Assembly (NCBI GenBank): GCA_021833625.1
Contig: JAKBEU010000002.1
Location: 323,332-356,621, forward strand
Reading direction: 5' to 3'
DNA from: a bacterium
GTDB taxonomy: Bacteria; Patescibacteriota; Microgenomatia; UBA1406; GWC2-37-13
Length of the DNA stretch: 33,290 bases
Position numbers and translations under genes: made by a program
The notes under the pieces: generated by a model
Told to the model about the DNA's origin: nothing
What the model saw: the letters and a program-made list of their open reading frames with translations, nothing else
Database searches by the model: none
Shown here: in pieces, positions 15,436 to 33,290 of the stretch
Position numbering within the stretch: position 1 is the stretch's first letter
Layout of the letters: every line of letters starts with the position of its first letter

Positions 15436-15981
15436 ATGGAAGAAGACACTCTCCGTGTTATTGAACAAGTAAAAAATGAAGCGGACTATTTCTCAAAAGG
15501 CAAGCTTATCTCCTATCTTATCAAACAAAAAAAAGTACGCGTCAAGGATGTTGCCGAAGCCCTCAAAATGAAACCGTCCTATGTCTGTCATTTTATGCGT
15601 CTTGCCAAACTGTCCGAGGTCGTCATGGACGGATATTATTCCAAACTTATTACGATAAGCCACCTTTTTGTTATCTCACTTCTCAAGTCTCAGGAAGACA
15701 TGGTGGAAATTTATGAGCAGGTACTGCGTGACAGTCTTACGGTGAAACAAACGGAGGAGTTGGTGCGCAAGAAACTGCACGGCGTTTCCTCGGAGGGAGA
15801 ATATGTACAGGACAGTGAGGTACAGGATGCTGAGGAAAAAATAGGGGCTGCTTATCAAGGAACGGCAAAAGTAATCCAAACGAGGATTAAAACGAAAGTA
15901 CTTATCGAGTGGACGGGGTCACGCAAAGAACGGTTGCAGAAAGTATCCTCATTCCTCAAACATGCAGGAAAAACTTCTTAA
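15436..15981 (+). CDS. ParB/KorB-type helix-turn-helix DNA-binding protein, lacking the ParB N-domain
   Basis: A 181-residue protein that matches the central DNA-binding domain of ParB-family proteins. It begins in the region before the HTH (FSKGKLISYLIKQKKV), followed by the HTH RVKDVAEALKMKPSYVCHFMRLAKL (about residues 34-58) and the helical part ISHLFVISLLKSQEDMVEIYEQVLRDSLTVKQTEELVRKKL. The N-terminal CTPase/sulfiredoxin-like domain with GERR motifs is absent, so it cannot be a full chromosome-segregation ParB. The C-terminal 60 residues are unrecognised. It may be a Noc/KorB-like regulator. It converges on lepB with a 4-nt overlap of 3' ends. Confidence 0.68.
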   Translation: MEEDTLRVIEQVKNEADYFSKGKLISYLIKQKKVRVKDVAEALKMKPSYVCHFMRLAKLSEVVMDGYYSKLITISHLFVISLLKSQEDMVEIYEQVLRDSLTVKQTEELVRKKLHGVSSEGEYVQDSEVQDAEEKIGAAYQGTAKVIQTRIKTKVLIEWTGSRKERLQKVSSFLKHAGKTS

Positions 15982-16589
15982 GAAAATATAAAACGGGGAA
16001 CGAACGTCTGCAAGTTGGCAGGAAACGGATTTGTTATGACTCCCATTTTATTCGGCGGGAAATAACGATAGAACACGAGTCCAATGACGCTTTCAATTGT
16101 TATGGGGCCGAACTCTCTTGAATCAGATGATCGCGGTCTGTTGTCTCCCATGACAAACAGCATTCCCTCCGGAACTTTTGTCGCTTCTCCGTTTTTGGAG
16201 TATCCTCCGTCCCACACATTTGTTTTTGCTGCAATATAAGGCTCATTCAACATGGTGCCGTTCACGTACACTTCCTCGTCCTTTACCATGACGGTGTCTC
16301 CCGGCAGACCGATGATGCGTTTTATATAGTCAATATCCGGATTGCTGGGGGACTTGAAAACGACTACTTCACCGCGATGAAAATTCCTTATTTTATAGGT
16401 GATTTTGCTCGTAAAGATATAATCTCCCGTTGCAAATGTCGGATCCATGGAAGCGCCCTTTACCTGATTGGGCTGCATGATAAACAAATAGACGACGATA
16501 AAAAGGGAGCCGACGAACACTATTGTTTCTAAAATATCCATGATGAAGGTAAAGATTGCCTTGATCACTCCCAAAAAGTCAATATCCAT
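15978..16589 (-). CDS. lepB: Signal peptidase I
   Basis: A 203-residue S26-family peptidase that removes signal peptides outside the inner membrane. It has an N-terminal membrane helix (about residues 17-38), the catalytic Ser in KGASMDPTF (S47), the general base Lys in DYIKRIIGLPGD (K90), and MGDNRPRSSDSREFG, the box E that lines the active site. The length is typical of a short bacterial SPase I. It is read towards the ParB-like gene, and its promoter overlaps the one for the tRNA gene. Confidence 0.93.
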   Translation of the reverse strand: MDIDFLGVIKAIFTFIMDILETIVFVGSLFIVVYLFIMQPNQVKGASMDPTFATGDYIFTSKITYKIRNFHRGEVVVFKSPSNPDIDYIKRIIGLPGDTVMVKDEEVYVNGTMLNEPYIAAKTNVWDGGYSKNGEATKVPEGMLFVMGDNRPRSSDSREFGPITIESVIGLVFYRYFPPNKMGVITNPFPANLQTFVPRFIFS

Positions 16590-16656: not shown

Positions 16657-16729
16657 GAATCCGTAGTTCAGTTGGTAGAACGTTGCATTCACATTGCAAA
16701 GGTCACAGGTTCGAGTCCTGTCGGATCCA
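16657..16729 (+). tRNA. tRNA-Val (anticodon CAC)
   Basis: A full cloverleaf can be drawn: acceptor 16657-16663 with 16722-16728, D-stem GTTC/GAAC, anticodon stem TTGCA/TGCAA with loop TTCACAT (anticodon CAC at 16690-16692, decoding GUG), and T-stem ACAGG/CCTGT with loop TTCGAGT. The discriminator is A and no CCA is encoded. There is one flaw: acceptor position 2 (A16658) faces C16727, an A-C mismatch. The 3' half would pair perfectly with GGATCCG, but the gene has GAATCCG. Phage-like genes begin right after it, so this is a candidate integration site. Confidence 0.88.
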
Positions 16730-16739
16730 CATCGTAGGG

Positions 16740-16789
16740 GAGACAAAAAAGTTCATAAAGGAAACAAAACACCTTTATGAACAAGTCTC
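16740..16789 (+). promoter_or_regulatory. Nested hairpin that covers the first phage-side start codon
   Basis: Inner arms GTTCATAAAGG (16751-16761) and CCTTTATGAAC (16772-16782) pair perfectly over 11 bp. Outer arms GAGAC (16740-16744) and GTCTC (16785-16789) pair too. The ATG at 16777 lies inside the right arm, and the AAAGG in the left arm is the only ribosome-site-like sequence nearby. When folded, both would be hidden. There is no T-run after it, so I favour translational control or a processing signal over a terminator. Confidence 0.5.
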
Positions 16790-17076
16790 AAGAGAAATTA
16801 TCAAACAGCGCGACAAATAGCCCCGATTCTACACTTGACAACGAAAAAAGTCAAGGTCTGCTTTATAATAACACTTCTCCTGCATTTAGAACTGCATACA
16901 CAATACTCGTAAACCAGATAGTTGGAGCAATCGCGAGTGAATTTAACCAGCAATATAAACTTTCCGTTATCCGAGAAAAGATGAACAAGGCTCTTGCTCC
17001 TCTTGGTATTCAATACAACACAAAACAAAGGTTCTTTCAAATTGTGGAGAAATACGGAAAGGAGGTGAGAGAATAA
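16777..17076 (+). CDS. Hypothetical protein, first gene of the phage early module
   Basis: A 99-residue protein with a polar N-terminus rich in Ser, Asn and Asp (about residues 1-30) and then a helical part (AYTILVNQIVGAIASEFNQQYKLSVIREKMNKAL). I recognise no family. The start codon lies inside a stable hairpin (16740-16789). Its stop overlaps the next ATG (TAATG). Its position at the tRNA edge makes it either an early phage gene or a leftover of the junction. Confidence 0.55.
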   Translation: MNKSQEKLSNSATNSPDSTLDNEKSQGLLYNNTSPAFRTAYTILVNQIVGAIASEFNQQYKLSVIREKMNKALAPLGIQYNTKQRFFQIVEKYGKEVRE

Positions 17077-17261
17077 TGTTACACAAACTCGATTTTTCAG
17101 ACAAATTTGCAACAGTTAAGACTTTCTTGCTCGGATTGTTCATCGGAGCCGTCATAACAGCCTTCTATTTAGATAACAGATTGGGTGCGATGATAAAAGC
17201 ATTCAAAAACCCACAAGCCGTTAATTCGGCTGTTATTTCTATGGAGGTAATAAAAAAATAA
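17076..17261 (+). CDS. Small single-pass membrane protein
   Basis: A 61-residue protein with one membrane segment (VKTFLLGLFIGAVITAFYL, about residues 14-32) flanked by charged residues. A strong ribosome site, AAAGGAGGTGA at 17058-17068, stands 7 nt before the ATG and matches the 16S anti-Shine-Dalgarno very well. This contrasts with the many starts in the window that have none. The function is unknown. A hairpin overlaps its stop codon. Confidence 0.6.
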   Translation: MLHKLDFSDKFATVKTFLLGLFIGAVITAFYLDNRLGAMIKAFKNPQAVNSAVISMEVIKK

Positions 17262-17285
17262 CCCCAGGTTTGAACTGAGGTTATT
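17257..17285 (+). terminator. Hairpin at the end of the first two phage genes
   Basis: AATAACC-C-CAG pairs with CTG-A-GGTTATT around a 7-nt loop: eleven positions with one mismatch, starting at the stop codon of the upstream gene. It is placed like an intrinsic terminator, but GATCTAAC follows rather than a T-run, so termination is uncertain. Confidence 0.4.
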
Positions 17286-17309
17286 GATCTAACAAATTAA
17301 ATTTTCACT

Positions 17310-17498
17310 ATGAGCATAACAAACAACAAAAAAAATGTCAAGGAGAACGCAGCACCGTTAGGGTTCATGAATGAGGCGTTTTCCTTTTTTGACAGGGCTA
17401 TTGATAAAGCCCAGAAAGAGAGCGAACAGGCGGAGCAGGAATACTACCGGATCGCAAACGGAACCATCCCGGAGCGGAAAGGAGTGGGAACAGTATGA
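17310..17498 (+). CDS. Hypothetical small charged protein
   Basis: A 62-residue hydrophilic protein, mostly helical, with an acidic/Gln-rich stretch (DKAQKESEQAEQEYYRIANG). I recognise no family. The stop overlaps the next start (ATGA), so it is probably translated and coupled to the following zinc-ribbon gene. No clear ribosome site precedes it. Confidence 0.5.
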   Translation: MSITNNKKNVKENAAPLGFMNEAFSFFDRAIDKAQKESEQAEQEYYRIANGTIPERKGVGTV

Positions 17499-17860
17499 AT
17501 ATACAACACACTGAACCGATGAAAATCCTCCACGACTGTTTAAAGCCGGAACCGCTATCCAAATGCTGTGCAGCTGTAATTATCCAGGGAGGTATATGTT
17601 CGGCATGCAAAGGACATATCGGACCAGAAGTGAAGAGATTCACCTATGGGGCCGGATGGGTTGAAGAACAGGGAGACGGCAACTATGACGTTTTCTCTGG
17701 AGAACCATGGGGATATACACGACTTGTAACCGCGAGAGTGTATGTCAGCAATGGAAAGCCTGTTTGTTGTTTTTTTGAATGTGGAAAGTATGCGAAGAAA
17801 TATAAGGATTTTAAATGCAAGCATGTTCGACTGTTAGAAAAACATTTGAAAAATATATGA
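17495..17860 (+). CDS. Hypothetical protein with cysteine-rich zinc-ribbon-like N-terminus
   Basis: A 121-residue protein. Cysteines in KCCAAV and GGICSACKG (about residues 23-40) look like a small zinc ribbon. A second cysteine set (CCFFECGKY, KCKHVRLLEKHL) lies near the end and includes a His. A good ribosome site (AAAGGAG) precedes the start. The stop overlaps the ATG of the ERF gene (ATGA), indicating coupling. A role with nucleic acid is possible from the zinc motifs, but no specific function is visible. Confidence 0.6.
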   Translation: MNIQHTEPMKILHDCLKPEPLSKCCAAVIIQGGICSACKGHIGPEVKRFTYGAGWVEEQGDGNYDVFSGEPWGYTRLVTARVYVSNGKPVCCFFECGKYAKKYKDFKCKHVRLLEKHLKNI

Positions 17861-18486
17861 AGACATCAGAATCAATCATAAAGATAGTTCCGGCACTACT
17901 TAAGGCACAAAAAGCAATAGGAGCCGCAAAAAAAGGAGCGACCAATCCGTTCTTCCATAGTAAATACGCCGACCTTGGAAGCGTAATGGAAGCTTGTAAG
18001 GATGAACTGAACGGAAATGGAGTCGTGATACTTCAACCAGTAGTTGGGACAATGGTGGAAACAGTGTTGCTGCACGAATCTGGTGAATGGATGACATCTG
18101 AAACGCCAATTATATGTGCTACACAAAATGACCCTCAAAAACTAGGAAGCGCAATAACTTATGCGCGCAGATACGGCCTTCAGAGCATGCTCTTTATTCC
18201 TGCCGAGGATGATGATGGAAATGGAGCAAGCAATGGAAAGCCTGTTGCGCCAAAGACAACAACTCATCCTCAGAAAGCAGAAAAAGATCCAACCGATGGA
18301 TGGAAGGATCCACGCTCAACAACTGAAACTATAAAGGCTCCAATAGTCGAACATCCCGATTTGGGTAAATGTAAAGATTGTGGAGCTGTAAATATACGCT
18401 ATACGACCGGAACTATAGGTTGCAAAAATAAATGTTGGAGTAAAAGAATCGGGATGAAGCCCGCAAGCGAAATGAAAGCACATTAA
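17857..18486 (+). CDS. ERF-family single-strand annealing recombinase with C-terminal zinc finger
   Basis: A 209-residue protein. The N-terminal 130 residues match the ERF superfamily (PF04404 type): LLKAQKAIGAAKKGATNPFFHSKYADLGSV, then VVILQPVVG, then the conserved GSAITYARRYGLQSML. ERF proteins anneal single-stranded DNA in phage recombination and genome circularisation. A Pro/Thr/Lys-rich linker leads to a four-cysteine element (CKDCG, CKNKC, about residues 170-195) that probably binds zinc. I start at ATG 17857 (MKTSES), which overlaps the preceding stop, instead of an earlier ATG inside the upstream gene. Confidence 0.85.
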   Translation: MKTSESIIKIVPALLKAQKAIGAAKKGATNPFFHSKYADLGSVMEACKDELNGNGVVILQPVVGTMVETVLLHESGEWMTSETPIICATQNDPQKLGSAITYARRYGLQSMLFIPAEDDDGNGASNGKPVAPKTTTHPQKAEKDPTDGWKDPRSTTETIKAPIVEHPDLGKCKDCGAVNIRYTTGTIGCKNKCWSKRIGMKPASEMKAH

Positions 18487-18510
18487 AAAGCATTGTTCGT
18501 TAAGCAAATC

Positions 18511-18533
18511 ATCGGGGAGATTCGCTCCCCGGT
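18511..18533. terminator. Strong GC hairpin after the ERF gene
   Basis: CGGGGAG and CTCCCCG form a perfect 7-bp stem with a 5-nt loop (ATTCG), extended by two weaker pairs. It lies 25 nt after the ERF stop in a 189-nt gap. No T-run follows. The rest of the gap (to 18675) is A/T-rich and holds no gene I can support. It may contain the promoter of the next gene. Confidence 0.45.
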
Positions 18534-18675
18534 AGATTCCAGCCGTTTACATATTAAAAGGTTGAAATTTACACAAATTATCAGTTTCGATAAAAGTTTA
18601 TTAAAGATCTATGAGAAAGGAAATAAATGAAAGTAAGGGATAGGTAAGAGTTATAAAAAATTTCATAAAGCTGGT

Positions 18676-19767
18676 ATGAAATGGTTTAAACATGATTGCG
18701 ATACAAGTCTCGATCCAAAAATAAAACTATTGAAGAAGAAATTCAAAATAGAAGGAGTCGGTGTATATTTTGAAATCAATAGGCTTATTGCGGAAAACGT
18801 AGCCGACGATATTGAGGAATGGGGTTATTTGCCAAAGGAATACACAGATAACCAAGAGCTACTTGAGGAGGAAATATGTACAGAAACTGTACAGAGACTA
18901 CACGATATCATAAATTACTGCATAGAGATCGGATTGCTCTATAAAAATGGGGAAAGGATATCTAACCCAAAAATACTTCTTCGAGCGGATAGATATACGG
19001 AGCAAAAGAGCAAGGAAAAAGGGATAAATATAACCATGTATGTACAGAAACTGTACAGAATATGTACAGAGTCTGTCCCTAGAAGAGAAGAGAAAGAAAA
19101 GAAGGAAAAGAACGAAACGAAGTTTAAGAAAGAGAGTGTGAGAGAAAACAAAGACGTTACTTCGCCTCCGGCTCAGTCGAGATTAAGAAAATCGGAATTG
19201 GAAAAAGATTCTGATTTTAACGAGAAGAGAAACAACGCATTAAAAATGGCTGCTAGTTTAGCTGTGGCTCTTTTTCTATTCGTCTTTCCGGTGTCTGCTC
19301 ATGAAGTAATTATCCGGTACACGATACATGGAAAATCGCCCCTTCCTGGGATAAAAACGGTCAAGACGACCAATATATCGGAAAAGCCAGAGAAATCGAA
19401 AATAGCACGGATAAACCCGGTAAAAATCAATACTACTGATGGTATCACTCCATTCAAAAAATATCTCACAGTAAAAGGTGAGGAAACCAGACAAGCTGTC
19501 TTAAAAATTGCAGAACAAGTTTATTCAGAAGACAATCTCCTCGCTTTTGACAACATCCTGAAGAAAGAATCGGGATACAGATTCGATGCAGTCAACGAAA
19601 TCGGTGCTTGTGGAATGGGTCAGGCACTCCCCTGCGAAAAAATGAACTGTCCGCTATCAGAAGAAGGTATCGCCTGCCAAACAGAATGGATTATGGGTTA
19701 TATCGACAGAAGATATGGAAATCCTATAAAAGCTTGGGAACATCATTTACAAGTTAATTGGTACTAA
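18676..19767 (+). CDS. Fusion: replication-initiator-like N-domain plus signal peptide and muralytic C-domain
   Basis: One 363-residue frame with two unrelated halves. Residues 1-110 resemble the Lin1244/Lin1753-type (DUF4373) domain of phage replisome organisers (MKWFKHDCDTSLDPKIKLLKKKF, GVGVYFEINRLIAENV). A Lys/Glu-rich linker follows. Residues 191-210 form a textbook secretion signal (MAASLAVALFLFVFPVSAHE). The last 90 residues look like a lysozyme/transglycosylase-type domain (KKESGYRFDAVNEIGACGMGQ, with a candidate catalytic Glu, then CQTEWIMGYIDRRYGNPIKAWEHHL). M191 (ATG 19246) could start a separate secreted protein, but I see no ribosome site or -10 box there. It may be a true fusion, two genes in one frame, or a deletion product. 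Confidence 0.7.
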   Translation: MKWFKHDCDTSLDPKIKLLKKKFKIEGVGVYFEINRLIAENVADDIEEWGYLPKEYTDNQELLEEEICTETVQRLHDIINYCIEIGLLYKNGERISNPKILLRADRYTEQKSKEKGINITMYVQKLYRICTESVPRREEKEKKEKNETKFKKESVRENKDVTSPPAQSRLRKSELEKDSDFNEKRNNALKMAASLAVALFLFVFPVSAHEVIIRYTIHGKSPLPGIKTVKTTNISEKPEKSKIARINPVKINTTDGITPFKKYLTVKGEETRQAVLKIAEQVYSEDNLLAFDNILKKESGYRFDAVNEIGACGMGQALPCEKMNCPLSEEGIACQTEWIMGYIDRRYGNPIKAWEHHLQVNWY

Positions 19768-19769
19768 CT

Positions 19770-20027
19770 ATGGACGATCAACCAATGGATGAGGAATTAA
19801 TATCCGGAGAAGAGGAACGCGATGAAGAGCGACCAAGCCTCGCATCGCAGAAACAATTGAGATATATCGGTATGATGCTTACCTACAAAAAGAAAGAAAA
19901 GGAAGTGATTTACAAATTTTTTGGAGTGGATACGATGAAAAAGCTAACGAAAAACCAGGCTAAGAAAGTCATTGATCAGCTCCAAAAATATCCGGATGTT
20001 ATAAAACCTAAATTTTTACAACCATGA
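19770..20027 (+). CDS. Hypothetical small phage protein with ASQKQLRYI motif
   Basis: An 85-residue protein. The N-terminus is acidic (MDDQPMDEELISGEEERDEERP). The rest has SLASQKQLRYIGMMLTYKKKEKE and LTKNQAKKVIDQLQKYP, a two-helix motif that recurs in small phage proteins near recombination genes. I chose ATG 19770 because the upstream alternative lies within the previous gene. The stop overlaps the next start. No function can be assigned. Confidence 0.55.
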   Translation: MDDQPMDEELISGEEERDEERPSLASQKQLRYIGMMLTYKKKEKEVIYKFFGVDTMKKLTKNQAKKVIDQLQKYPDVIKPKFLQP

Positions 20028-20356
20028 TTAAACTAACACAGGAAAACGCGATCCTCGAGGAATTGAAGAAAGCCGGAAGTATGGGATTACACCCCTCATG
20101 CTTTATTGAATTTCTACATATTTATCAGTATTCTGCGCGGATAAATGGATTACGGAAAAGATTTAACTGTCAATGTAAAAATGGCGTTCATTGCGTTTCA
20201 AGCGAACATATCATAAATCGAAGGCTACCAAATGGGACCACTAAATTTTTCTACGAAAAATCACCGGACATCAATTGGGAAGGCATGCGCAAGGAAATAA
20301 TACAGAAAAGGGACGAACAAGAGATTTTACCACAGGGAAATTTATTTAATTATTAA
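20024..20356 (+). CDS. Hypothetical protein with winged-helix-like fold
   Basis: A 110-residue protein. ENAILEELKKAGSMGLHPSCF followed by YSARINGLRKRFNCQCKNG and a strand pair ending in NGTTKFFYEK follows the layout of winged helix-turn-helix domains: helices that read I..LR..G, then a beta wing ending in a Tyr-rich strand. It is probably a small DNA-binding phage protein. It is coupled to the previous gene by ATGA. Confidence 0.5.
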   Translation: MIKLTQENAILEELKKAGSMGLHPSCFIEFLHIYQYSARINGLRKRFNCQCKNGVHCVSSEHIINRRLPNGTTKFFYEKSPDINWEGMRKEIIQKRDEQEILPQGNLFNY

Positions 20357-20369
20357 CTTATTTATACCT

Positions 20370-20663
20370 ATGAGAAAAGGAAACAACCACAAGAGAGATT
20401 TTTATAAACGTCAAGTTGAAACTCTGGAGCGGGAACGGCAAGCGTACAAAGAAAAATACGAAAAATTAGAAAATGATCGCTTAAAGAAGATAGAGGAAGG
20501 AAAAAAGATAAAACGATATGATGCGACTGTATATTGCACCAATTGTATGCATGTAAATAATGTTTCCGTTCCGGAAGGATTGGCAATTAAAGATGGAGAT
20601 TGCACCTATTGCCGTGTTAAGTGCTGCCTTTTAAAAGTTGTCTCCTATCCTGGAAAGATATAA
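20370..20663 (+). CDS. Coiled-coil plus zinc-ribbon protein
   Basis: A 97-residue protein. Residues 1-50 are highly charged and helical (ETLERERQAYKEKYEKLENDRLKKIEEG), fitting a coiled coil. Residues 56-85 contain CTNCMHVN and CTYCRVKC, two CxxC pairs of a zinc ribbon. It is one of several zinc-ribbon proteins in this module. The function is unknown. The RtcB gene begins 5 nt after its stop, so they probably share a transcript. Confidence 0.55.
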   Translation: MRKGNNHKRDFYKRQVETLERERQAYKEKYEKLENDRLKKIEEGKKIKRYDATVYCTNCMHVNNVSVPEGLAIKDGDCTYCRVKCCLLKVVSYPGKI

Positions 20664-20668
20664 TTCTT

Positions 20669-21862
20669 ATGAAAGTCATATCAACAGAACAGAAACCAAT
20701 TAAATTATGGTTAGATGATATAGAAGATGGAGCATTAGAACAGGCTAAGAATTTAGCCAATCTTCCTTTTACGTTTCGACATGTTTCTATAATGCCGGAC
20801 TCCCATCAGGGATACGGTATGCCCATAGGGGGAGTATTGGCAACCGAAGGCGTGGTGATCCCTAATGCGGTAGGAGTTGATATCGGGTGCGGTATGTGTG
20901 CGGTTGAAACGTCTTTGAAAGAAATCGACACGGACACCTTAAAAAAAATAATGGGAGAAATACGCAAAGCTATTCCCGTTGGCTTCGGACATCATAAGGA
21001 AAAACAGAACGAAAAATATATGCCTCGGATTGACAATTCTGCTTACTATTCAAAAGAAAATTTAGATGTAAAATTTAAGATTTGTGGTAGGGAGTATAGT
21101 AGTGCTCTTACTCAGATAGGTACACTTGGAGGAGGTAATCATTTCATCGAGATACAAAAAGGGAATAACGGCCATATCTGGATTATGATACATTCCGGTA
21201 GCCGGAACTTTGGGTATAAGGTCGCCCATTACTACAATGAACTGGCGATCTCCCTAAATGAACTATGGCATACTTCCATTCCGAAGGAATGGGAACTTGC
21301 TTTTTTGCCTCTTGATAGTCAAGAGGGACAGGATTACTTACGGGAAATGCAGTACTGCGTTGAATTTGCCCTTGCTAACCGCAAGCTGATGATGGATAGA
21401 ATTATCGATATATTCAACGGGGTGTTCGATAACGCTATCTCAAAGTATCCCATGATTAATATAGCTCACAATTATGCGGTAATGGAAAATCATTTCGGAA
21501 AGAACGTCATGGTCCACCGAAAAGGAGCAACTAAGGCAACCCTGAACACAATAGGGATTATTCCAGGATCGCAAGGCACTGCCTCTTATATCGTCAGAGG
21601 TAAGGGAAACCCAGAGAGTTTTCAATCTTGTTCACATGGAGCAGGACGAAAGATGGGACGAAAAGCGGCACAAAGGACGCTTAATTTAGAAGAAGAAAAG
21701 AAAAAGCTTGATGATATGGGAGTAATACATGCGATACGAGGAATACAAGACCTAGATGAAGCGCCAGGAAGTTACAAAGATATTTCTGTTGTCATGAAAA
21801 ACCAGGAAGATCTTGTCGATATTTTAGTGGAATTAAAGCCTTTGGCGGTAATTAAAGGCTAA
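20669..21862 (+). CDS. rtcB: RNA-splicing ligase RtcB family protein
   Basis: A 397-residue protein that matches RtcB, the GTP- and Mn-dependent ligase joining RNA 2',3'-cyclic phosphate (or 3'-phosphate) and 5'-OH ends. Motifs in order are MPDSHQGYGMPIGGV (about 42-56), VGVDIGCGMC (D71, C74, metal binding), GTLGGGNHFIEI, HSGSRNFG, VHRKGATKA, PGSQGTASYIVRGKGN, and CSHGAGRKMGR with the His that is guanylylated. All expected ligands are present. I start at MKVIST (20669). It sits within the phage early module. An RNA repair role, for example mending tRNAs cut by a host defence nuclease, is inference. Confidence 0.9.
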   Translation: MKVISTEQKPIKLWLDDIEDGALEQAKNLANLPFTFRHVSIMPDSHQGYGMPIGGVLATEGVVIPNAVGVDIGCGMCAVETSLKEIDTDTLKKIMGEIRKAIPVGFGHHKEKQNEKYMPRIDNSAYYSKENLDVKFKICGREYSSALTQIGTLGGGNHFIEIQKGNNGHIWIMIHSGSRNFGYKVAHYYNELAISLNELWHTSIPKEWELAFLPLDSQEGQDYLREMQYCVEFALANRKLMMDRIIDIFNGVFDNAISKYPMINIAHNYAVMENHFGKNVMVHRKGATKATLNTIGIIPGSQGTASYIVRGKGNPESFQSCSHGAGRKMGRKAAQRTLNLEEEKKKLDDMGVIHAIRGIQDLDEAPGSYKDISVVMKNQEDLVDILVELKPLAVIKG

Positions 21863-21883
21863 TTATCATTTATTTATTCAAAT

Positions 21884-22642
21884 ATGAATCAATTGGCTGA
21901 GATAGTAAAAACAAGCGGTTTAGAAATTGTTGAAGGTCAAAGTATTATTGACAGATTTGGAGATTACGAATCTATTGCAAAAGAATGGAAAATAAAAGCA
22001 GAACAGATTGTTGTAACAGATAGAAGCCAAACGACAGAAATGGCAATGGCAAAAGAAGCTCGAAAAAAGTTCTCAGAATTGAGATGCGATGTGGAAAAAG
22101 CAAGAAAACAGATGAAAGAACAAAGCTTGAGAAAGGGACAAGCAATTGATGCAATCGCCCGATTCTTAACTTCACTTATTTCGCCAATCGAAGACCATCT
22201 AAGGGCTCAGGAAGATTTTATTAAAATTGAAGACGCTAAAAAAGCAGAAGAGGCACGAATTGCCGCAGAAAAAAAGATCGAAGAGGAAAAAATAGCAAAA
22301 GAAAAAGCAGAGAAAGAAGCCCAGGAGAAAATAAGACTAGAAAACGAAAAGTTAAGGATCGAAGCTGACAAATTACAAAAGGAAAAAGAAAAAATCCAAA
22401 GGGAACTTGAATCCAAAAAATTGGAAGAAGCAAGGAAGAAAAAAGAAGCTGAGGATCTAGAAAATAAGAGAATAATGGAAGAAAAGAAAAGCTTAGAAGC
22501 AGAGATGAAAAAGCCGGATGAGCAAAAATATAATGCCTACATTCAGAAACTACTTGATATTAAAGTTCCGATAATCAAAAACACAGAAATAAACAATAAA
22601 GTTAATGGTGTTCGCTCATTGTTGAAGAAAGAAATTCAATAA
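21884..22642 (+). CDS. Long coiled-coil phage protein (DUF1351-like)
   Basis: A 252-residue protein. The N-terminal 110 residues have KKFSELRCDVEKARKQMKEQSLRKGQAIDAIARFLTSLISPIEDHLRAQEDF, the pattern of DUF1351-like proteins found beside phage recombinases. Residues 110-210 are an almost unbroken Glu/Lys/Ala coiled coil (EEKIAKEKAEKEAQEKIRLE). The short C-terminal part is globular (YNAYIQKLLDIKVPII). It probably assists the ERF system, by gene neighbourhood only. Confidence 0.6.
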   Translation: MNQLAEIVKTSGLEIVEGQSIIDRFGDYESIAKEWKIKAEQIVVTDRSQTTEMAMAKEARKKFSELRCDVEKARKQMKEQSLRKGQAIDAIARFLTSLISPIEDHLRAQEDFIKIEDAKKAEEARIAAEKKIEEEKIAKEKAEKEAQEKIRLENEKLRIEADKLQKEKEKIQRELESKKLEEARKKKEAEDLENKRIMEEKKSLEAEMKKPDEQKYNAYIQKLLDIKVPIIKNTEINNKVNGVRSLLKKEIQ

Positions 22643-22647
22643 TATTT

Positions 22648-23007
22648 ATGTGGTACAAAAACCTAAAAAACAAATTTCACGCAAAAAAGACGGAATATAA
22701 AGGAATTAAATATGCAAGTGGGAGAGAAGCGAAAAAGGCTTGGGATTTGGATATGCTGGTCCGAGGGGAAGTAATTCTCAGATGGGAACGTCAGGCGAAA
22801 GAAGAATTATTTGGGATAAATAAGTCAAAAATATGCTCCTACTATGTCGATTTCAAAATTTTCCATGTCGATGGAACGATTGAATACCTTGAAATTAAAT
22901 CAAAGCCTACCGCGACACCGGAGTGGAAGCTTAAATGGAAACTGCTTGAGGATAAATATAAACAAGAGGTTTTGGATAAAAAAATCATTTTGACAGTTGA
23001 ATACTGA
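22648..23007 (+). CDS. DUF1064-type phage endonuclease
   Basis: A 119-residue protein with the order of the DUF1064 family, a PD-(D/E)XK fold found in phages: AKKTEYKGIKYASGREAKKAWDLDML (conserved Glu), LRWERQAKEELF, YYVDFKIF (Asp), then TIEYLEIKSKPTATPEWKLKWKLL with the E-x-K pair. It is probably a resolvase or nuclease acting on recombination intermediates. It lies 5 nt after the coiled-coil gene and 2 nt before the next gene. Confidence 0.8.
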   Translation: MWYKNLKNKFHAKKTEYKGIKYASGREAKKAWDLDMLVRGEVILRWERQAKEELFGINKSKICSYYVDFKIFHVDGTIEYLEIKSKPTATPEWKLKWKLLEDKYKQEVLDKKIILTVEY

Positions 23008-23009
23008 AT

Positions 23010-23282
23010 ATGCAGAAATTACAGGTTTCCGAGTGGGTTGAGCACGACCAATTCGGATCATGGTTCAATAAAAAGAGGCTCCTTGAAAATAGGGAACATG
23101 CATTAAAATGGGAGCATAGAGGAGAAGAAAAAAAGAAGAAAATCATAGTAAAGAAAAAAAGTTATTCCGGAGAATGCAAAATATGTGGTACAACAGTCAC
23201 TTCATCGTTTGAGCTTACAGATACGATGTTCAAGGGAAAATGGGTCAAGGGTTGCGCTCGCTGTTTTCTTTCTTCAATCTAG
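23010..23282 (+). CDS. Hypothetical zinc-ribbon protein, last gene of the early module
   Basis: A 90-residue protein. The N-terminus has Trp-rich, charged sequence (WVEHDQFGSWFNKKRLLENREHALKWEH). The C-terminus has a zinc ribbon (CKICGTT at about 58-64 and CARC near 83-86). It is the last plus-strand gene before the convergence with the lysis genes. No function can be assigned. Confidence 0.55.
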   Translation: MQKLQVSEWVEHDQFGSWFNKKRLLENREHALKWEHRGEEKKKKIIVKKKSYSGECKICGTTVTSSFELTDTMFKGKWVKGCARCFLSSI

Positions 23283-23460
23283 CCCTGAACACTCTATAAG
23301 AAATGAACTTATTGAAAAGTCCGCATTTTTTAGCTTGTTTGATACCTCTTCGGTATTGCCGGAGCAGTATGTTTCTCATTGGGACGATATGTGCCATTGA
23401 TAAAATACCTACCGTGATAAAAACCTGTGAATATGGCAAGGTTAGCCAAATGCCGGACAA
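23245..23460 (-). CDS. Doubtful small membrane protein in the convergent gap
   Basis: A 71-residue frame that begins at TTG 23460 with GAGGT a few nt upstream. It has one hydrophobic segment (WLTLPYSQVFITVGILSMAHIV) and a basic tail. It overlaps the previous plus-strand gene by 38 bp and follows the holin by 43 nt, so it could be a fourth lysis-cassette gene. A non-ATG start, the overlap and the lack of recognisable homology keep this uncertain. Otherwise 23283-23503 holds nothing I can support: I found no terminator with a T-run in either direction. Confidence 0.25.
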   Translation of the reverse strand: MSGIWLTLPYSQVFITVGILSMAHIVPMRNILLRQYRRGIKQAKKCGLFNKFISYRVFRARLKKENSERNP

Positions 23461-23503
23461 TTACCTCTTTCTTTACTGGAGAGGGCTGAGCTAACCGTTC
23501 CAT

Positions 23504-23749
23504 TTACTTACCTCCCGCTTTTGAAGCAATTTTAGAGACTGCGCTGAAGGCAAGGGATACTTCAATCGCCTGTTTCGCATGGTTAAGAAGCATATTGCCA
23601 AGCTCTGCAGGAATGAATGAGAATCCGAATGCCACTATAAATGACAAAGCAAACTTGAGGCGCGAATCAAGGTCGGGTTTGAAGAAGCTGATAACATTTA
23701 CCGTTCCAAATCCGATAAGTCCTAGGAATCCGAATGAATATATGTCCAT
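23504..23749 (-). CDS. Holin-like membrane protein
   Basis: An 81-residue protein with two predicted membrane helices (YSFGFLGLIGFGTVNVISFF at about 4-23, and KFALSFIVAFGFSFIPAELG at about 32-51) and an amphipathic Ala/Lys-rich tail ending in SKAGGK. Size, topology and position at the end of a lysis cassette with an endolysin fit a holin, which permeabilises the inner membrane at the end of infection. No specific holin family is recognised. Confidence 0.65.
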   Translation of the reverse strand: MDIYSFGFLGLIGFGTVNVISFFKPDLDSRLKFALSFIVAFGFSFIPAELGNMLLNHAKQAIEVSLAFSAVSKIASKAGGK

Positions 23750-23768
23750 AAAAATAAATAATTAATAA

Positions 23769-24104
23769 TTACTTGAGAAAATGGGTATACAAGCTCTGTA
23801 TTTGCCCTTGCATCGTTGTTACTTGCGTCTGATATCCCTTGAATGACTCTTGGAACGTTGTATGATCTTTTACGAGTTGATCAATTACTTCTTCATATTT
23901 TTCATGATCTTCTTTGTTTTTTTCTGCCCTGACAGTCAGGGAGTTAATAGAACTTTGGAGAGGAGATAGCTTAGAAGTAAGCCAAAGATTCCCAAACATA
24001 ATGAAAAGATTAGCGATTGCAGTAATTGCCAATCCGAGGATGATTTTGACCGCGTTTTCTTGTACCATTTTGAGTAGCCATCCATGTTTGTCATTCGTGT
24101 TCAT
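23769..24104 (-). CDS. Single-pass membrane protein with coiled coil, lysis cassette
   Basis: A 111-residue protein. A membrane helix (AVKIILGLAITAIANLFIMFGNLWL, about residues 18-42) is followed by a coiled coil of about 60 residues (LSPLQSSINSLTVRAEKNKEDHEKYEEVIDQL). The layout recalls XhlA/haemolysin-type holin accessories and some spanin-like proteins. It overlaps the endolysin gene by 4 nt (ATGA) and precedes the holin by 19 nt, so it is translated with them. Which lysis role it has is inference. Confidence 0.6.
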   Translation of the reverse strand: MNTNDKHGWLLKMVQENAVKIILGLAITAIANLFIMFGNLWLTSKLSPLQSSINSLTVRAEKNKEDHEKYEEVIDQLVKDHTTFQESFKGYQTQVTTMQGQIQSLYTHFLK

Positions 24105-24742
24105 GCTGATGTTACATAATTCCTAATTTTCTCTTTCATAGCCTCAATCCTATCTTGGCACTCTTTATCTTTATTTGCTAATAGTCTATCTGTATCGGTT
24201 TGGAGCGTCTTTATGAACAAATCCTTACCTTCAATCGCTTTATTTAAGGTATCAATTTCTTTTTTTAATTTATCTGTTTCGGTTGGTTCTGAAGGGATAG
24301 GTGGTTTAGAGAGATTTTCAGTCAGATAAGGCCATGGATTGCATGTACCGCCATATCCATCCTGCTTATTCCTGGGCTTTCTAAAGTATCCCCAATGAAG
24401 ATGTGGACCTGTCGAGTTTCCGGTATTATCTGAAATCCCTATCTGTTGTCCTTCAAGGATTTTGTCTCCCGGATTTACATTGAATGATTTCAGATGCGCT
24501 AGTATCGACCCTTCGACATCGTTTTCGATTTTCACGTACATGCCGTAGCCGTATTCATCGTAAGCCGCTTCAATTACCGTTCCATCATGCGGAGCGACTA
24601 TCGGAGTACCTGTTGGTGTTCCATAATCAACGCCATTATGTCCTTTATAGCCAAATTGCGCGTACATGTGGATACCATTTAAGACAAGATCGTTTCCCCA
24701 TTCTTGGGTTACCGGAAACGTACCTAAAAAGGGTCTTCTCAT
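24101..24742 (-). CDS. M23-family endopeptidase (endolysin) with coiled-coil tail
   Basis: A 213-residue protein. The LytM/M23 zinc peptidase domain covers about residues 1-145: HNGVD (H35, D39), the LAHL His at 83, and STGPHLHWG (H114, H116), all required ligands. The tail from about residue 150 is a coiled coil (KLKKEIDTLNKAIEGKDLFIKTL). It would cut peptide cross-links in peptidoglycan. There is no signal peptide, so it depends on the holin. The order endolysin, membrane coiled-coil, holin on one strand is a classical lysis cassette. A -10 element stands 8 nt before its start. Confidence 0.88.
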   Translation of the reverse strand: MRRPFLGTFPVTQEWGNDLVLNGIHMYAQFGYKGHNGVDYGTPTGTPIVAPHDGTVIEAAYDEYGYGMYVKIENDVEGSILAHLKSFNVNPGDKILEGQQIGISDNTGNSTGPHLHWGYFRKPRNKQDGYGGTCNPWPYLTENLSKPPIPSEPTETDKLKKEIDTLNKAIEGKDLFIKTLQTDTDRLLANKDKECQDRIEAMKEKIRNYVTSA

Positions 24743-24750
24743 ATATATAA

Positions 24751-24756
24751 ATTGTA
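24751..24756 (-). promoter_or_regulatory. -10 element before the endolysin gene
   Basis: TACAAT on the minus strand ends 8 nt before the endolysin ATG. The -35 region is weak (TAAATC at 17 bp). The spacing matches the other leaderless-type starts of the window. The lysis genes may therefore have their own promoter besides any late read-through. Confidence 0.4.
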
Positions 24757-24818
24757 TGGGGAATAGTTGACAGGATTTACACCCACGAACTGATTTCGTT
24801 TGAATTTAAGCATCTATA

Positions 24819-24847
24819 TTGACAATTATGGTTAGTTTATGTAGTAT
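24819..24847 (+). promoter_or_regulatory. Strong sigma70-type promoter of a moron-like unit
   Basis: A perfect TTGACA (24819-24824), a 17-bp spacer, and TAGTAT (24842-24847), then 7 nt to ATG 24855. It faces away from all surrounding late genes. The position predicts a leaderless transcript. Confidence 0.7.
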
Positions 24848-24854
24848 TAGGGTA

Positions 24855-25172
24855 ATGAAAAAGCTTTTTGGGACAATCTGCATCGTATTATTCATTGTTC
24901 TCGCTATATTTTCTGCGTGGACGTATTATGAGAAGGAAATGTATAAAAATTCCTTGGATTCAATGAACAAAAGTTGGGAGGCGGTATCAGCTTATGATTT
25001 TAACTACATCAATAAACTTGCGGATTTTATAAAGCTTCAAAATACGATTCATCCGGTAAATTTCACGAAAGAAGAGCAAAAAGCCTTCGATGAACTGAAA
25101 AAAATAAAAGAAGATCGCGGAGCGTTTATCAGAAAATTCCCCAACATTCAGCCCATTTATCAGGTAAGATAA
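24855..25172 (+). CDS. Moron-like membrane-anchored protein
   Basis: A 105-residue protein that starts at MKKLFGTIC. One N-terminal membrane segment (LFGTICIVLFIVLAIFSAWTYY, about residues 4-25) is followed by about 80 mostly helical, charged residues expected outside the membrane (SMNKSWEAVSAYDFNYINKLADFIK, EEQKAFDELKKIKEDRG). The frame can be extended upstream, but the promoter's -35 and -10 lie in that extension, so ATG 24855 is the likely start. It is the only plus-strand unit inside the minus-strand late block, with its own consensus promoter, like phage morons that alter the lysogen. Exclusion of other phages is a guess. Confidence 0.65.
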   Translation: MKKLFGTICIVLFIVLAIFSAWTYYEKEMYKNSLDSMNKSWEAVSAYDFNYINKLADFIKLQNTIHPVNFTKEEQKAFDELKKIKEDRGAFIRKFPNIQPIYQVR

Positions 25173-25176
25173 CTAT

Positions 25177-25251
25177 ATGGTTGGGTTTTTGATAGGTGCA
25201 GGTACTATTTTTTTATGTTGGCTTATTTGGGTGTTATTCGGATGCAAATAA
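25177..25251 (+). CDS. 24-residue hydrophobic membrane peptide
   Basis: ATG 25177 to TAA 25249-25251 encodes a 24-residue peptide that is almost entirely hydrophobic (VGFLIGAGTIFLCWLIWVLF) and ends in Gly-Cys-Lys. It starts 4 nt after the moron-like gene and ends exactly where the next minus-strand gene ends, so the unit fills the gap with no spare bases. Size and composition fit a small transmembrane peptide. No ribosome site is obvious, and translation would rely on coupling. Confidence 0.45.
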   Translation: MVGFLIGAGTIFLCWLIWVLFGCK

Positions 25252-26691
25252 TCACCTATTTGGATTCGTTACTATCCCTATTTTTGCTGCGTTTCTAAAG
25301 TAATTATTTCCCGGTATTTTAGGAATATTAAATTTCTGCATATTTTTCCCTACCGCTCTCAATCCTTTACTAGCAACCTTTATAAATCGCGGATCATTTA
25401 CAACTTGTTCTGCCACAAATCCGCCGATGGCTCCTGGTGCACCGCTTAATATGCCTCCAATTCCTGCTCCTCCAAGCTTTGAGAAATTGAATACTTGTCT
25501 ATTTGCCTCTCTTGCAGCAGAATTTGTCAATATTTTTTCCATTCCTTTTGCCATTCCATATTCACGTCCAAGCTTTGCCAATCGCGGATCAGAATCATTT
25601 ATTGTTTTTCTGAGGACATCTCTGACTGATTTTGCTCCTTGCGCTGTTCCTGATCCTTTTGCATCGAGCATAAATTGTGCTTGTGGAATATCCTGATCTA
25701 ATGCTTTTCGGTATTTAGTCAATTTATCGATTCCTACATCAACATAGGGCATTTTTCTTGTCCCACCAGCCATATCAATGAGTTGTTTTCTTCTTCTTAT
25801 AAGCTCTGCAGCTTGTGCTTTTGCGGCATTACTATATGCATTTTCTCCGGTTGTCAATTCGATTATGTTTTTGTCGATATCATTAATAACTTGTCCCAAA
25901 TTAGTTGCTTTTCCGCTTTTGAGTGAAATAGTATCATATTTTGAGCCTATTGCTTTTTTTATATCTCCTGCAATTTCAGGTGATCTATCATACAGATTGT
26001 ATTTATCAATGAAATCTGCTGTTTTCATCCCTGATTTTGCTTCAAGTTTGGCCTGCATGAGTGGATTGCCAATGCCTCTTGTAATAAGCTGTTCTCCTGA
26101 TTTCTCGACATTTTTCCCTAATTTTCTGAATGCGTTCTGTATTGGGGTCGTTTTTATAACTTTTCCGGGAAGGGCTAAAGGATCGAGCGTCTCTCCGATT
26201 CCAGCTGCGACTTTGCCAGCGTTTTCAAGCGCTCCAATTTTGCTTACCGCGCCAGCGCCTTTGAGTGCACTTCCGATTCCTCCAGCCACCATTGAAGCAT
26301 CTAGAGCGACCCCTGCAGGATCTTCATAGAAAGTATTTCCTATTTTATTTATTCCATTACCGACATCACCCTTTGCAAAATCTGATATTCCATATTTTTG
26401 ATCGTATGATTTTGCCAATTGTTTTGCTCTATTGCTGTCTAATGTGGGCTCACCCATCACTACATTTTTAGCTGCTTCCGCTGCATCGAGTCCAAGATTG
26501 GCTATATTAGCTACTGTATTTTTCTCCATATCCGGATTAAATACATTTACTGCTGCGCTTCCAATACCTCCCACTAAATTTGCGCCACTTTTAACGGTGT
26601 TACCAAGAAAACCACTGATAGTTTTCTTATCTGGCGTAAATCCTATTTTACTTTGTCTCGGCTGCTGTAATCTATCTGGTATAAATGGCAT
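25252..26691 (-). CDS. Large phage protein of the late module, possible virion/ejection protein
   Basis: A 479-residue protein with no named family that I recognise. It is rich in Ala, Gly and Lys, mostly helical, and has glycine-zipper-like hydrophobic stretches (SMVAGGIGSALKGAGAVSKIG at about 136-156, GAGIGGILSGAPGAIGGFV near residue 415). Such segments occur in internal virion proteins that line ejection channels. A soluble helical middle includes LIRRRKQLIDMAGG and RKTINDSDPRLAKLGREY. It starts 2 nt after the stop of the upstream late gene. The ejection role is inference from composition and place. Confidence 0.6.
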   Translation of the reverse strand: MPFIPDRLQQPRQSKIGFTPDKKTISGFLGNTVKSGANLVGGIGSAAVNVFNPDMEKNTVANIANLGLDAAEAAKNVVMGEPTLDSNRAKQLAKSYDQKYGISDFAKGDVGNGINKIGNTFYEDPAGVALDASMVAGGIGSALKGAGAVSKIGALENAGKVAAGIGETLDPLALPGKVIKTTPIQNAFRKLGKNVEKSGEQLITRGIGNPLMQAKLEAKSGMKTADFIDKYNLYDRSPEIAGDIKKAIGSKYDTISLKSGKATNLGQVINDIDKNIIELTTGENAYSNAAKAQAAELIRRRKQLIDMAGGTRKMPYVDVGIDKLTKYRKALDQDIPQAQFMLDAKGSGTAQGAKSVRDVLRKTINDSDPRLAKLGREYGMAKGMEKILTNSAAREANRQVFNFSKLGGAGIGGILSGAPGAIGGFVAEQVVNDPRFIKVASKGLRAVGKNMQKFNIPKIPGNNYFRNAAKIGIVTNPNR

Positions 26692-26693
26692 GG

Positions 26694-28289
26694 TTATGAA
26701 ATCGTTTGATAAAGTGTCGGGTCAAATTCATTCTCGGGAATAGTACCCGTTTCACCTGTCTTCAGGTTTCGCACTCTTATTTGCTGAGATCCATTCGGCG
26801 AAGCGCCAGCGCCTTGATTAAGATTTGTCTTTAGTTCTTCAAGTACACCTCGCATTTGCTCCGGAGATAAGTTCTGGCCTAGTGAAGAAGCTGCCTTTTC
26901 AAGCATTTTTGCTTCGTAGTCAGAAATCTGTCCGGAACCTTTAAGCATCTGTCTTCCTTCAAGTGAAAGCATAGATTTTAATTGATCATAATTATTCTGA
27001 AGCAACTGCGCGTCAGACCCTGGAAGTGCGTTTAACGGATTATATTTGCCATAGCCGCTTATTGACCCAACATCTCCAGACAGCAATTTATCGATTAACC
27101 CTATAGCACTTTGTGCTCCTGATGTCTTTCCTGTCGCTGCTCCTATTTTTGTATCAAAAGCGTTTGGATTTTGTGTTCTATATATAAAATCATTCATCGT
27201 TTCAGGTTTTCCTGTAGCCATAAATCCTGCTGATAATTGTGGATTTGCTGTAGCCTGTTCTTTTTGGAACGTGAGCTTCTGCTGCTCTCCTGCAAGCCGT
27301 AATGAATCAAACTTGTCGGCAATATCCTGTTTTGCTGTTTGAGCATCAAGATACGCCTTTCTGAGAGCCGCTCCTTTTGCTCCTTCATTATCTCGAAGCA
27401 ATTCATTTATTTTCCGTATTGTTTCCTGCAGTTTGACGTCTTCGTCCTCAATAAGCCGTGCAGCATCCAGTTTCGCGCTTGAAATTTTATCATCGATTTC
27501 TTGAACCTTATTTGCAAGTGTTAATTGTGTTGTGTTTTGTGTCCTATTAAATTCCGTATCGGCATTTTCATTTCCCTGAGTAAATGAACCAGTACCATAT
27601 GAATCTATAGTGCCAAGCGCGGCATATTGTTTTTCGCGCTGTGCGTCTGTCTGACGCTTGTTTTCCATATTTGCTCTCAATACACCACCATAAGTGTTCG
27701 TTGCGTCTGCTTTTGCCGTTACTCCTTGTTTTTCAAATTGAGCTATATCAGCATTTTTTCTGTCCGCAAACGTCTTGAATGCAGCCTCCGCTGCAGGAAT
27801 ACCTACCCTTAAGTCAGTTGCTGTATTGTCATAAAGAGTTTTTGCATTATTTTCTGTCTCAGTTTGTCCGGCTTCAATTAAAGCTAGTCGTTTTTTCTCT
27901 GCATCTGAATATGTCGCATTTTGTTTATCGTAAAGCTCCAGTTGTTTTTTAAGATAATCCTGCATCGTTGTTGGAACTGAAGAAGTAGTAGGCTTTGACG
28001 CATTTGGATCTGCTTTCGTTGTTCCATCACTATAGGTAATTGTTCCGTTATTATTTGACCTAATAGGAGTCGGAGCTGGCTGATCAGCCCACGTTGTTGA
28101 CGGATTAGTCCAAGGATTCGTTGCCTTTTGAGTCGAAACTGACTGTTGTGGTGTCCGTATATTTGATACGGTACTTTTAACACTACCAGTAGTGTTTCCA
28201 CCACCAACAGGACTACTTTGACCATATCCTGCTTTCGTTTCCCAAGGGTTAACAGGTTTCTTTAATTGTGAACTAAATATATTTGCCAT
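26694..28289 (-). CDS. Large coiled-coil phage protein of the late module
   Basis: A 531-residue protein. The first 110 residues are low-complexity (Ser, Thr, Gln, Pro, Gly) and probably disordered. Residues 115-340 are long helices and coiled coil (YLKKQLELYDKQNATYSDAEKKRLALIE, KVQEIDDKISSAKLDAARLIEDEDVKL). The C-terminal part is globular (LLSGDVGSISGYGKYNPLNALPG, SLEGRQMLKGSGQISDYEAKMLEKAASSLG). The SDYEAKMLEKA stretch recurs in phage internal or tail proteins. It is probably a virion component. It begins 15 nt after the 908-residue gene and ends 2 nt before the next. Confidence 0.6.
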   Translation of the reverse strand: MANIFSSQLKKPVNPWETKAGYGQSSPVGGGNTTGSVKSTVSNIRTPQQSVSTQKATNPWTNPSTTWADQPAPTPIRSNNNGTITYSDGTTKADPNASKPTTSSVPTTMQDYLKKQLELYDKQNATYSDAEKKRLALIEAGQTETENNAKTLYDNTATDLRVGIPAAEAAFKTFADRKNADIAQFEKQGVTAKADATNTYGGVLRANMENKRQTDAQREKQYAALGTIDSYGTGSFTQGNENADTEFNRTQNTTQLTLANKVQEIDDKISSAKLDAARLIEDEDVKLQETIRKINELLRDNEGAKGAALRKAYLDAQTAKQDIADKFDSLRLAGEQQKLTFQKEQATANPQLSAGFMATGKPETMNDFIYRTQNPNAFDTKIGAATGKTSGAQSAIGLIDKLLSGDVGSISGYGKYNPLNALPGSDAQLLQNNYDQLKSMLSLEGRQMLKGSGQISDYEAKMLEKAASSLGQNLSPEQMRGVLEELKTNLNQGAGASPNGSQQIRVRNLKTGETGTIPENEFDPTLYQTIS

Positions 28290-28304
28290 ATTATTTAATA
28301 GAAA

Positions 28305-31031: not shown

Positions 31032-31091
31032 AGTGTTAGATAGCTAAAATAATCTATTGCCAATATTTATTTGCGGCTTCTTGGCTGACCG

Positions 31092-31120
31092 TTTTCCTTA
31101 TAGTTAAATGATAAGGAAAA
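31092..31120. repeat. Perfect hairpin between the 908-residue gene and the left inverted repeat
   Basis: TTTTCCTTAT and ATAAGGAAAA form a 10-bp perfect stem with a 9-nt loop. It lies in the 148-nt gap that separates the invertible segment from the next late gene. Neither strand has a T-run after the stem. It could be a weak terminator, a transcript-processing site or a protein-binding dyad. The rest of the gap (31032-31179) shows only A/T-rich sequence. Confidence 0.45.
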
Positions 31121-31179
31121 AGGATATATATATTTACAGTCAGGGGTAATTTAGGAAAGATAATATAGTCTTTCATCTG

Positions 31180-31208
31180 CGTATCCAATCTCTACAGACT
31201 CGAACTAT
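31180..31208 (+). repeat. Left 29-bp inverted repeat of the invertible segment
   Basis: It begins CGTATCCAATC and ends ACTCGAACTAT. It is a perfect reverse complement of 32978-33006 over 29 bp, with mismatch at the next base inside. The centre reads TCTCTACAGA, an imperfect dyad (TCTnTAnAGA) centred on TA at the middle of the repeat, as expected for a recombinase site with a 2-bp crossover core. That last reading is tentative. Confidence 0.85.
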
Positions 31209-31222
31209 TTCTAATGTTTACT

Positions 31223-32927: not shown

Positions 32928-32928
32928 A

Positions 32929-33033
32929 TTATCTCCTAATCGTTGTCAAACTGACAACAACGCGTGAAGCAACGTATATAGTTCGAGTCTGTAGAGATTG
33001 GATACGTGAGGTAGAAAAATTAAATAAATTCAT
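32929..33033 (-). CDS. 34-residue ORF that spans the right inverted repeat
   Basis: ATG 33033 lies 2 nt after the stop of the tail-fibre-like gene, and the TAA is 1 nt before the ATG of the glycine-rich gene, so it fills the gap exactly. The peptide starts MNLFNFSTSRIQSLQTRTI and ends SRVVVSLTTIRR. The inverted repeat encodes RIQSLQTRTI in its middle. After inversion the same frame would continue as SNVYYGKNS and stop inside the start of the other glycine-rich gene. It may be a translational coupler rather than a functional protein. Confidence 0.5.
   Translation of the reverse strand: MNLFNFSTSRIQSLQTRTIYVASRVVVSLTTIRR
32978..33006 (-). repeat. Right 29-bp inverted repeat of the invertible segment
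   Basis: On the plus strand it begins ATAGTTCGAGT and ends GATTGGATACG. It is a perfect reverse complement of 31180-31208. It lies within the 34-codon ORF, 50 nt upstream of the in-line glycine-rich gene. Confidence 0.85.
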
Positions 33034-33035
33034 TG

Positions 33036-33254: not shown

Positions 33255-33290
33255 CTTGATAGTTGTGGTACTCGCATTTTATTGCATAAT

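Follow-up and report, generated by a model that had tools for sequence, protein, structure and literature searches.

The gene rtcB at 20669–21862 of the window (the whole stretch of DNA analysed here, 33,290 nucleotides) encodes what is, by sequence and predicted fold, a true, intact and phage-borne RtcB RNA ligase, and no other RtcB was found in the genome of its CPR-type host. We propose, with a probability of roughly 60%, that a functional phage RtcB, probably expressed early, mends cut RNA in a small-genome host that is otherwise devoid of RtcB. The features on which the argument rests are as follows.

15978–16589, minus strand: host lepB (signal peptidase I), the last host gene before the prophage (translation; in relatives, homologues adjoin the same tRNA).
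16657–16730, plus strand: host tRNA-Val(CAC), the probable integration site and left end of the prophage (ARAGORN).
16716–16726, plus strand: candidate attL core, an 11-base direct repeat of C2:18995–19005 beyond the integrase gene (repeat scan).
16740–23494, plus strand: early module of the prophage, which holds rtcB (ORF layout; Pfam and PHROG families).
17815–18486, plus strand: ERF-family single-strand annealing protein, phage recombination (Pfam ERF, 4.5e-23; PHROG 2324).
18676–19767, plus strand: Lin1244_N (replication-type) domain with a phage transglycosylase-like C-terminus (Pfam, PHROG).
20370–20663, plus strand: small zinc-ribbon protein directly upstream of rtcB (relative in viral contig L006).
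20669–21862, plus strand: rtcB, complete 3'-phosphate/5'-hydroxyl RNA ligase of 397 residues (ORF, Pfam, PHROG, residues, predicted fold).
21884–22642, plus strand: coiled-coil protein downstream of rtcB (no Pfam or PHROG match, no viral relative).
22648–23007, plus strand: DUF1064 / Holliday-junction-resolvase-like nuclease (Pfam, PHROG).
23504–33290, minus strand: start of the late module, mostly on this strand, with M23 lysins and tail-type genes, continuing on contig C2 (Pfam, PHROG, contig overlap).
C2 17860–18852, in the minus-strand late region: tyrosine integrase (PHROG 1; Pfam PF00589).

The reading frame runs through its 397 codons without interruption, and its start at ATG 20669 agrees with where related proteins begin (MKVIST... 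in L025 and L005, MQVNTE... in L002); an alternative in-frame start, GTG at 20621, would give 413 residues. The protein covers the entire Pfam RtcB profile PF01139 (1–426 of 426; 381.4 bits with a cut-off of 27, E 9e-114) and matches PHROG 1075 'tRNA splicing ligase' (6e-124) and the sequence of the solved structure 1uc2 (E 1.4e-49). Its predicted model (pLDDT 92.5) superimposes on 4dwq, RtcB with GMP and Mn, with Z 42.6 and an rmsd of 2.3 over 384 residues. D71, C74, N157, H158, E161 and H175 align with E. coli D75, C78, N167, H168, E171 and H185, and R179, H267, H323, R327 and K396 with E. coli R189, H281, H337, R341 and K407; all 11 of these active-site residues are kept in 76–80 of 80 aligned sequences. 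The roles of the aligned residues are known from E. coli and P. horikoshii RtcB, and in the E. coli enzyme D75, C78, H168, H185 and H281 bind metal while H337 is the GMP acceptor. The traits of the family, namely the full-length profile, the two-metal site with the guanylylated histidine and the RtcB fold, are thus all present, and the claim of the earlier note that the ligase is complete, with all metal and guanylylation residues, holds for every residue mapped.

Contig C1, one of three in a host genome of 1,095,652 bases (1.10 Mb) that is 99.6% complete, ends with the window. This genome size, like those of other members of the phylum, is consistent with a CPR host. The window's last 137 bases are also the start of contig C2 except for one T in a T run (126 bases exact), so C2 continues the window; the one-T difference (window 33279–33290, L061:126–137) is likely an assembly or sequencing slip. 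Positions 1–18852 of C2 carry late genes on the minus strand, including the terminase (PHROG 979, 9e-47), portal (PHROG 156) and major head protein (PHROG 9953), and beyond the integrase, from C2 19541, lies a 2025-residue surface-type protein. In the same-genus genome G001, a single ORF of 197 residues separates the lepB and tRNA-Val(CAC) pair from an apparent homologue (judged by eye) of this surface protein, so the integration site is uninterrupted there. ARAGORN placed the tRNA beside lepB in each of the five relatives it was run on; a sixth, G002, yielded no more than part of lepB, at the end of a contig. Since phage genes are found on both contigs and the site is uninterrupted in G001, the prophage extends over ~35.4 kb, beginning at tRNA-Val and ending shortly beyond the integrase, and spans the end of C1 and C2. 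The 11-base repeat, which lies in the 3' part of the tRNA, is weak evidence alone, with four other 10–12-base matches in the same scan. The earlier note had assigned rtcB to a phage early module, and this assignment is borne out by the ERF annealase, Lin1244_N and DUF1064/Holliday-junction-resolvase-like genes, all on the same strand and within 4 kb of rtcB. Nor is the region 16740–23282 host chromosome, given the phage genes on both contigs and the empty site in G001: rtcB sits between phage genes, inside an insertion that this close relative lacks. The gaps to its flanking genes are 5 and 21 bases, as in an early operon.

Several other features of the prophage and its contigs were observed along the way. 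The Lin1244_N and transglycosylase-like parts form a single ORF (18676–19767), either a fusion or the result of a lost stop. In the late module a perfect 29-base inverted repeat (31180–31208 / 32978–33006) flanks a 1.8 kb segment with convergent glycine-rich, tail-fibre-like ORFs (31214–31729, plus strand; 31722–32927, minus strand) that have a nearly identical end peptide; by its layout the segment looks like an invertible tail-fibre cassette. Glycosyltransferase-like and methyltransferase-like genes lie between the prophage tail and head genes on C2 (L061:3618–7191), and the prophage protein set has Pfam matches to Anp1, RGP and Methyltransf_24. At the other end of C1 (L065:3709–9000), ParB-like, DNA-methyltransferase-like and serine-recombinase-like ORFs, identified by eye, suggest a second mobile element.

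The earlier note had advised looking for another rtcB in the host, and protein and Pfam searches found none beside the prophage copy. The phage must therefore be the source of whatever RtcB-type repair takes place in this cell, which in principle allows a clean test. The same-genus genomes G001 and G002 are without RtcB, 10 of the 56 other relatives have a match, and a Pfam search of the class's 233 genomes found RtcB in 21, the host among them. These 21 comprise 11 long forms, six members of the clade of the window's RtcB (G000, G254, G098, G216, G243, G237), two outside that clade (G153, G171) and two that are partial and unplaced (G130, G158). Across the phylum, a match to the window's RtcB at E 1e-60 or better turned up in 8 of 379 genomes. 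The copy in G254 is on a phage-like contig with a primase/helicase and a major head protein, while seven others (G237, G098, G216, G243, G519, G340, G275), from genomes of the class or phylum, appear to be stand-alone chromosomal genes, a context judged from translations inspected by eye rather than from family scans; those of G519, G340 and G275, 58–65% identical to the window's RtcB, are outside the tree sample. A member of the host family, G015, has an RtcB frame of 975 codons, and some viral RtcBs reach 714–719 residues (L016:4858–7008 and L020:4831–6990, the latter with an intein-like insert after the DIGC metal motif).

This distribution bears on who benefits. The gene could serve lysogenic conversion, giving the streamlined, RtcB-less host a means of repairing RNA damaged by the toxins of competitors or by stress; the sole copy in the prophage, its absence from G001 and G002 and the seemingly stand-alone chromosomal relatives in the seven genomes above speak for this. 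However, rtcB lies amid replication and recombination genes, neither at the prophage edge nor as isolated cargo, and the promoter scan at rtcB was uninformative (24 promoter-like sites where 18.6 are expected), so that a promoter of its own is indistinguishable from chance. We regard lysogenic conversion as rather unlikely, if the first of the alternatives to be kept in mind.

Where does this RtcB come from? We built a tree of 80 rows, the window's RtcB and 79 of 99 extracted sequences, with a quick IQ-TREE run and SH-aLRT support only. Twenty rows were dropped because they repeated a gene already present, were fragments or carried an intein (L015, L016, L024, L036, L038–L041, L059, L073–L076, L087–L093); L018 and L020 were retained though incomplete or intein-bearing at the N-terminus. 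The nearest neighbour of the window's RtcB is a viral contig, L002, at 70% identity, and both fall in a starred clade (98) of 40 rows from viral contigs, Desulfobacterota-type, Bacteroidota, Ignavibacteriota, other and CPR-class sources. On the question raised earlier, whether the phage copy groups with phages or hosts, the tree thus places it among viral-contig RtcBs mixed with chromosomal ones. At least 8 switches between the labels virus and cell are required on these 40 rows (20 virus, 20 cell), a count in which genome-collection rows were labelled cell without a context check of each and only L080 was relabelled virus after its contig was read. The 16 long-form CPR RtcBs, 31–38% identical to the window's, form a separate starred set, and the branch on which they join phage row L109 is 1.25 changes per column long.

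That the gene is a housekeeping copy of the host had also been considered. This is rejected: the prophage RtcB is the sole one in the genome, and constraining it to group with eight host-family RtcBs costs 252 log units (p 9.7e-57), so that no tight clustering with such a copy exists. Constraining it with all 16 long-form CPR RtcBs was not rejected (cost 4.6, p 0.44), which in our reading reflects the freedom of the whole long-branched set to hang from the window's own branch; this is a weaker, uninformative test, and its result does not support our placement of the window's RtcB apart from them.

The gene travels alone, and its neighbourhood differs between phages. Among the prophage proteins only RtcB recurs widely, in 42 of 43 related loci. 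A conserved partner gene was sought and rejected: neither the related loci nor a scan of viral contigs yielded the zinc-ribbon neighbour anywhere but in L006, where a 36% identical protein lies directly downstream of rtcB, so it is common to two phages only. No viral relatives were found of the downstream coiled-coil protein or of the prophage terminase. The neighbours of related RtcBs are more telling. Among chromosomal members of the clade, RtcR and RtcA stand beside rtcB in L046, a TROVE/Ro60 protein is near it in L051, a WYL regulator in L052 and, by similarity, in four more loci, and RlaP 'RNA repair' and poly(A)-polymerase-type proteins in L053; the RtcBs of these RNA-repair-operon-type loci (L046, L051–L056) lie in the same starred 40-row clade, as judged from the quick tree only. 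In 22 viral loci, 87 proteins lie within four ORFs of rtcB, and a Pfam scan of 86 of them revealed RlaP in L009 and L026, RNA_ligase in L014 (also of T4-Rnl1 type) and L021, and, again in L026, a poly(A)-polymerase-type protein; one further protein, whose locus was not traced, matched 'HAD domain in Swiss Army Knife RNA repair proteins' (HAD_SAK_2). RNA-repair neighbours were thus traced to 4 of the 22 viral loci, two of which (L021, L026) have RtcBs placed immediately outside the 40-row clade. Among the 44 prophage proteins scanned, no RNA-repair partner was found (RtcA, RtcR, TROVE, WYL, RlaP, Rnl1, Rnl2, Pnkp or release factor). Since its kin stand beside RNA-repair genes, the link of this RtcB lineage to the mending of damaged RNA is supported by sequence context, and with it the repair of cut RNA in general.

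The same neighbours weigh on a further alternative. RtcB acts on DNA ends, and with ERF, DUF1064/Holliday-junction-resolvase-like and replication-type genes around it the ligase could cap or join 3'-phosphate DNA ends within the recombination module. The RNA-repair neighbours of some viral and chromosomal kin argue against this, as does an rtcB neighbourhood that is not conserved between phages, and we consider a role at DNA ends very improbable.

The earlier note had also suggested that the ligase may serve the splicing of tRNA introns, known from parts of the CPR, in which case the phage RtcB would join the exons of intron-containing tRNAs; splicing is, after all, the activity for which the family is named. 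In the host, however, separate tRNA scans gave 46 tRNAs (45 + 1) for all 20 amino acids, none of them interrupted, and a search for group I introns found no match. Splicing is therefore out for this host, and with 212 of the 233 genomes of the class showing no RtcB match at all, we give the idea next to no weight. Of the earlier interpretation, then, the complete, phage-borne ligase stands and tRNA-intron splicing in the host does not.

What would the phage gain from the ligase? We infer its activity, substrate, time of expression and benefit as follows. rtcB would be expressed together with the replication and recombination genes of the phage. Its substrate would be RNA whose cut strands end in 5'-OH and 2',3'-cyclic phosphate (or 3'-phosphate), with tRNAs the likeliest, and joining would proceed with GTP and Mn2+ via guanylylated H323. 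The cutting ribonucleases might come from the host, from rival elements or from the habitat and act during infection, and rejoining of the RNA would keep translation going for the phage. An RNA repair role for this RtcB is likely on these grounds, and counter-defence against anticodon nucleases, as raised in the earlier note, would be a plausible form of it. Single-family searches of the host for MazF (PF02452), PrrC-type / AAA_13 (PF13166) and HepT (PF01934) gave no match, and PADLOC, run on 10 prophage proteins, found no defence protein beyond two weak matches (E 0.003, 0.006). The negative searches for these three nuclease families count against our proposal, as do the lack of an RNA-repair partner in the prophage and the small share of viral loci (4 of 22) with traced RNA-repair neighbours.

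Published work points in both directions. A passage of Hughes et al. (PMC7790460) describes the Salmonella rtc operon as responding to tRNA 5' fragments with cyclic phosphate, one of Kurasz et al. (PMC9879122) reports that genes of prophage Gifsy-1 are required for the rtc signal, and part of a jumbo-phage survey (PMC7824862) proposes that phage RNA ligases, RtcB included, repair RNA cut by RNase effectors. Against our proposal, excerpts of other papers report that deletion of the host rtcB of P. aeruginosa left the plating of phage PAK_P3 unchanged (PMC4933390) and that rtcB of the temperate phage Adephagia is toxic or inhibitory when expressed in M. smegmatis (PMC11373665), and a results heading of PMC9223846 states that the rtcB2-prfH operon gives no protection from tRNA-targeting toxins. 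Searches for literature on RtcB, bacteriophage and anti-defense, and on CPR, phage, tRNA and RtcB, found none, with subscription journals and preprints mostly outside their scope, and we do not claim that such work is absent.

RtcB2-PrfH is the system in which an RtcB is used against a ribotoxin: according to part of PMC9223846 it protects E. coli from colicin E3, with RtcB as the ligase. The window's RtcB could by analogy reseal 16S rRNA cut by colicin-E3-like toxins, but it differs in scoring under the curated cut-off of the RtcB2 model (TIGR03073, 155.9 vs 271.8 bits), and the prophage is without PrfH, no release-factor family being found among its 44 proteins. We therefore consider rRNA repair of this kind improbable, and prefer the mending of cut RNA more broadly.

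Phage T4 rejoins cut tRNA during infection with Pnkp and Rnl1, a ligase and a chemistry unrelated to RtcB. The end proposed for the window's RtcB is the same, while no Rnl1, Rnl2 or Pnkp family is found in the prophage; T4 tRNA repair is mentioned in a passage of PMC4933390. Bacterial Rtc operons (rtcR-rtcB-rtcA; TROVE/WYL/RlaP loci) have RtcBs of the same clade as the window's (L046, L051–L056), and their RtcA, RtcR, TROVE, WYL and RlaP are absent from the 44 proteins of the prophage. The viral-contig RtcBs of IMG/VR (L002–L006 and others) are 66–71% identical to the window's, and almost no gene besides rtcB is common to those contigs and the prophage.

That many phages carry RtcB is already known: it is widespread, in 656 of 50,697 phage records, and the phage RtcBs of PHROG 1075 (Caulobacter phiCbK, jumbo phages, Bordetella phage PHB04) are like the window's in family, phage location and full active site. 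The window's RtcB differs in sharing no more than 44% identity with its best match among the 656, in lying apart in the tree from the 16 phage records sampled, and in its carrier, a temperate phage whose host is CPR-type. The points of interest are the sole-copy RtcB in a CPR-type lysogen and a clade that mixes RtcBs of phages and of RNA-repair operons. It is possible, though rather unlikely, that phages carry RNA-repair-type RtcB through CPR, a temperate phage here supplying an ultra-small, RtcB-less cell with its sole RNA-mending enzyme of this kind and copies being kept in other CPR lineages as stand-alone chromosomal genes; if so, RNA repair in CPR would be a phage-borne, swappable trait. 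This case extends the known phage RtcBs by a temperate phage from a CPR-type bacterium in which no RtcB but the prophage copy was found, a host for which tRNA splicing is ruled out, and a phage RtcB lineage tied to RNA-repair operons and to viral RNA-repair loci.
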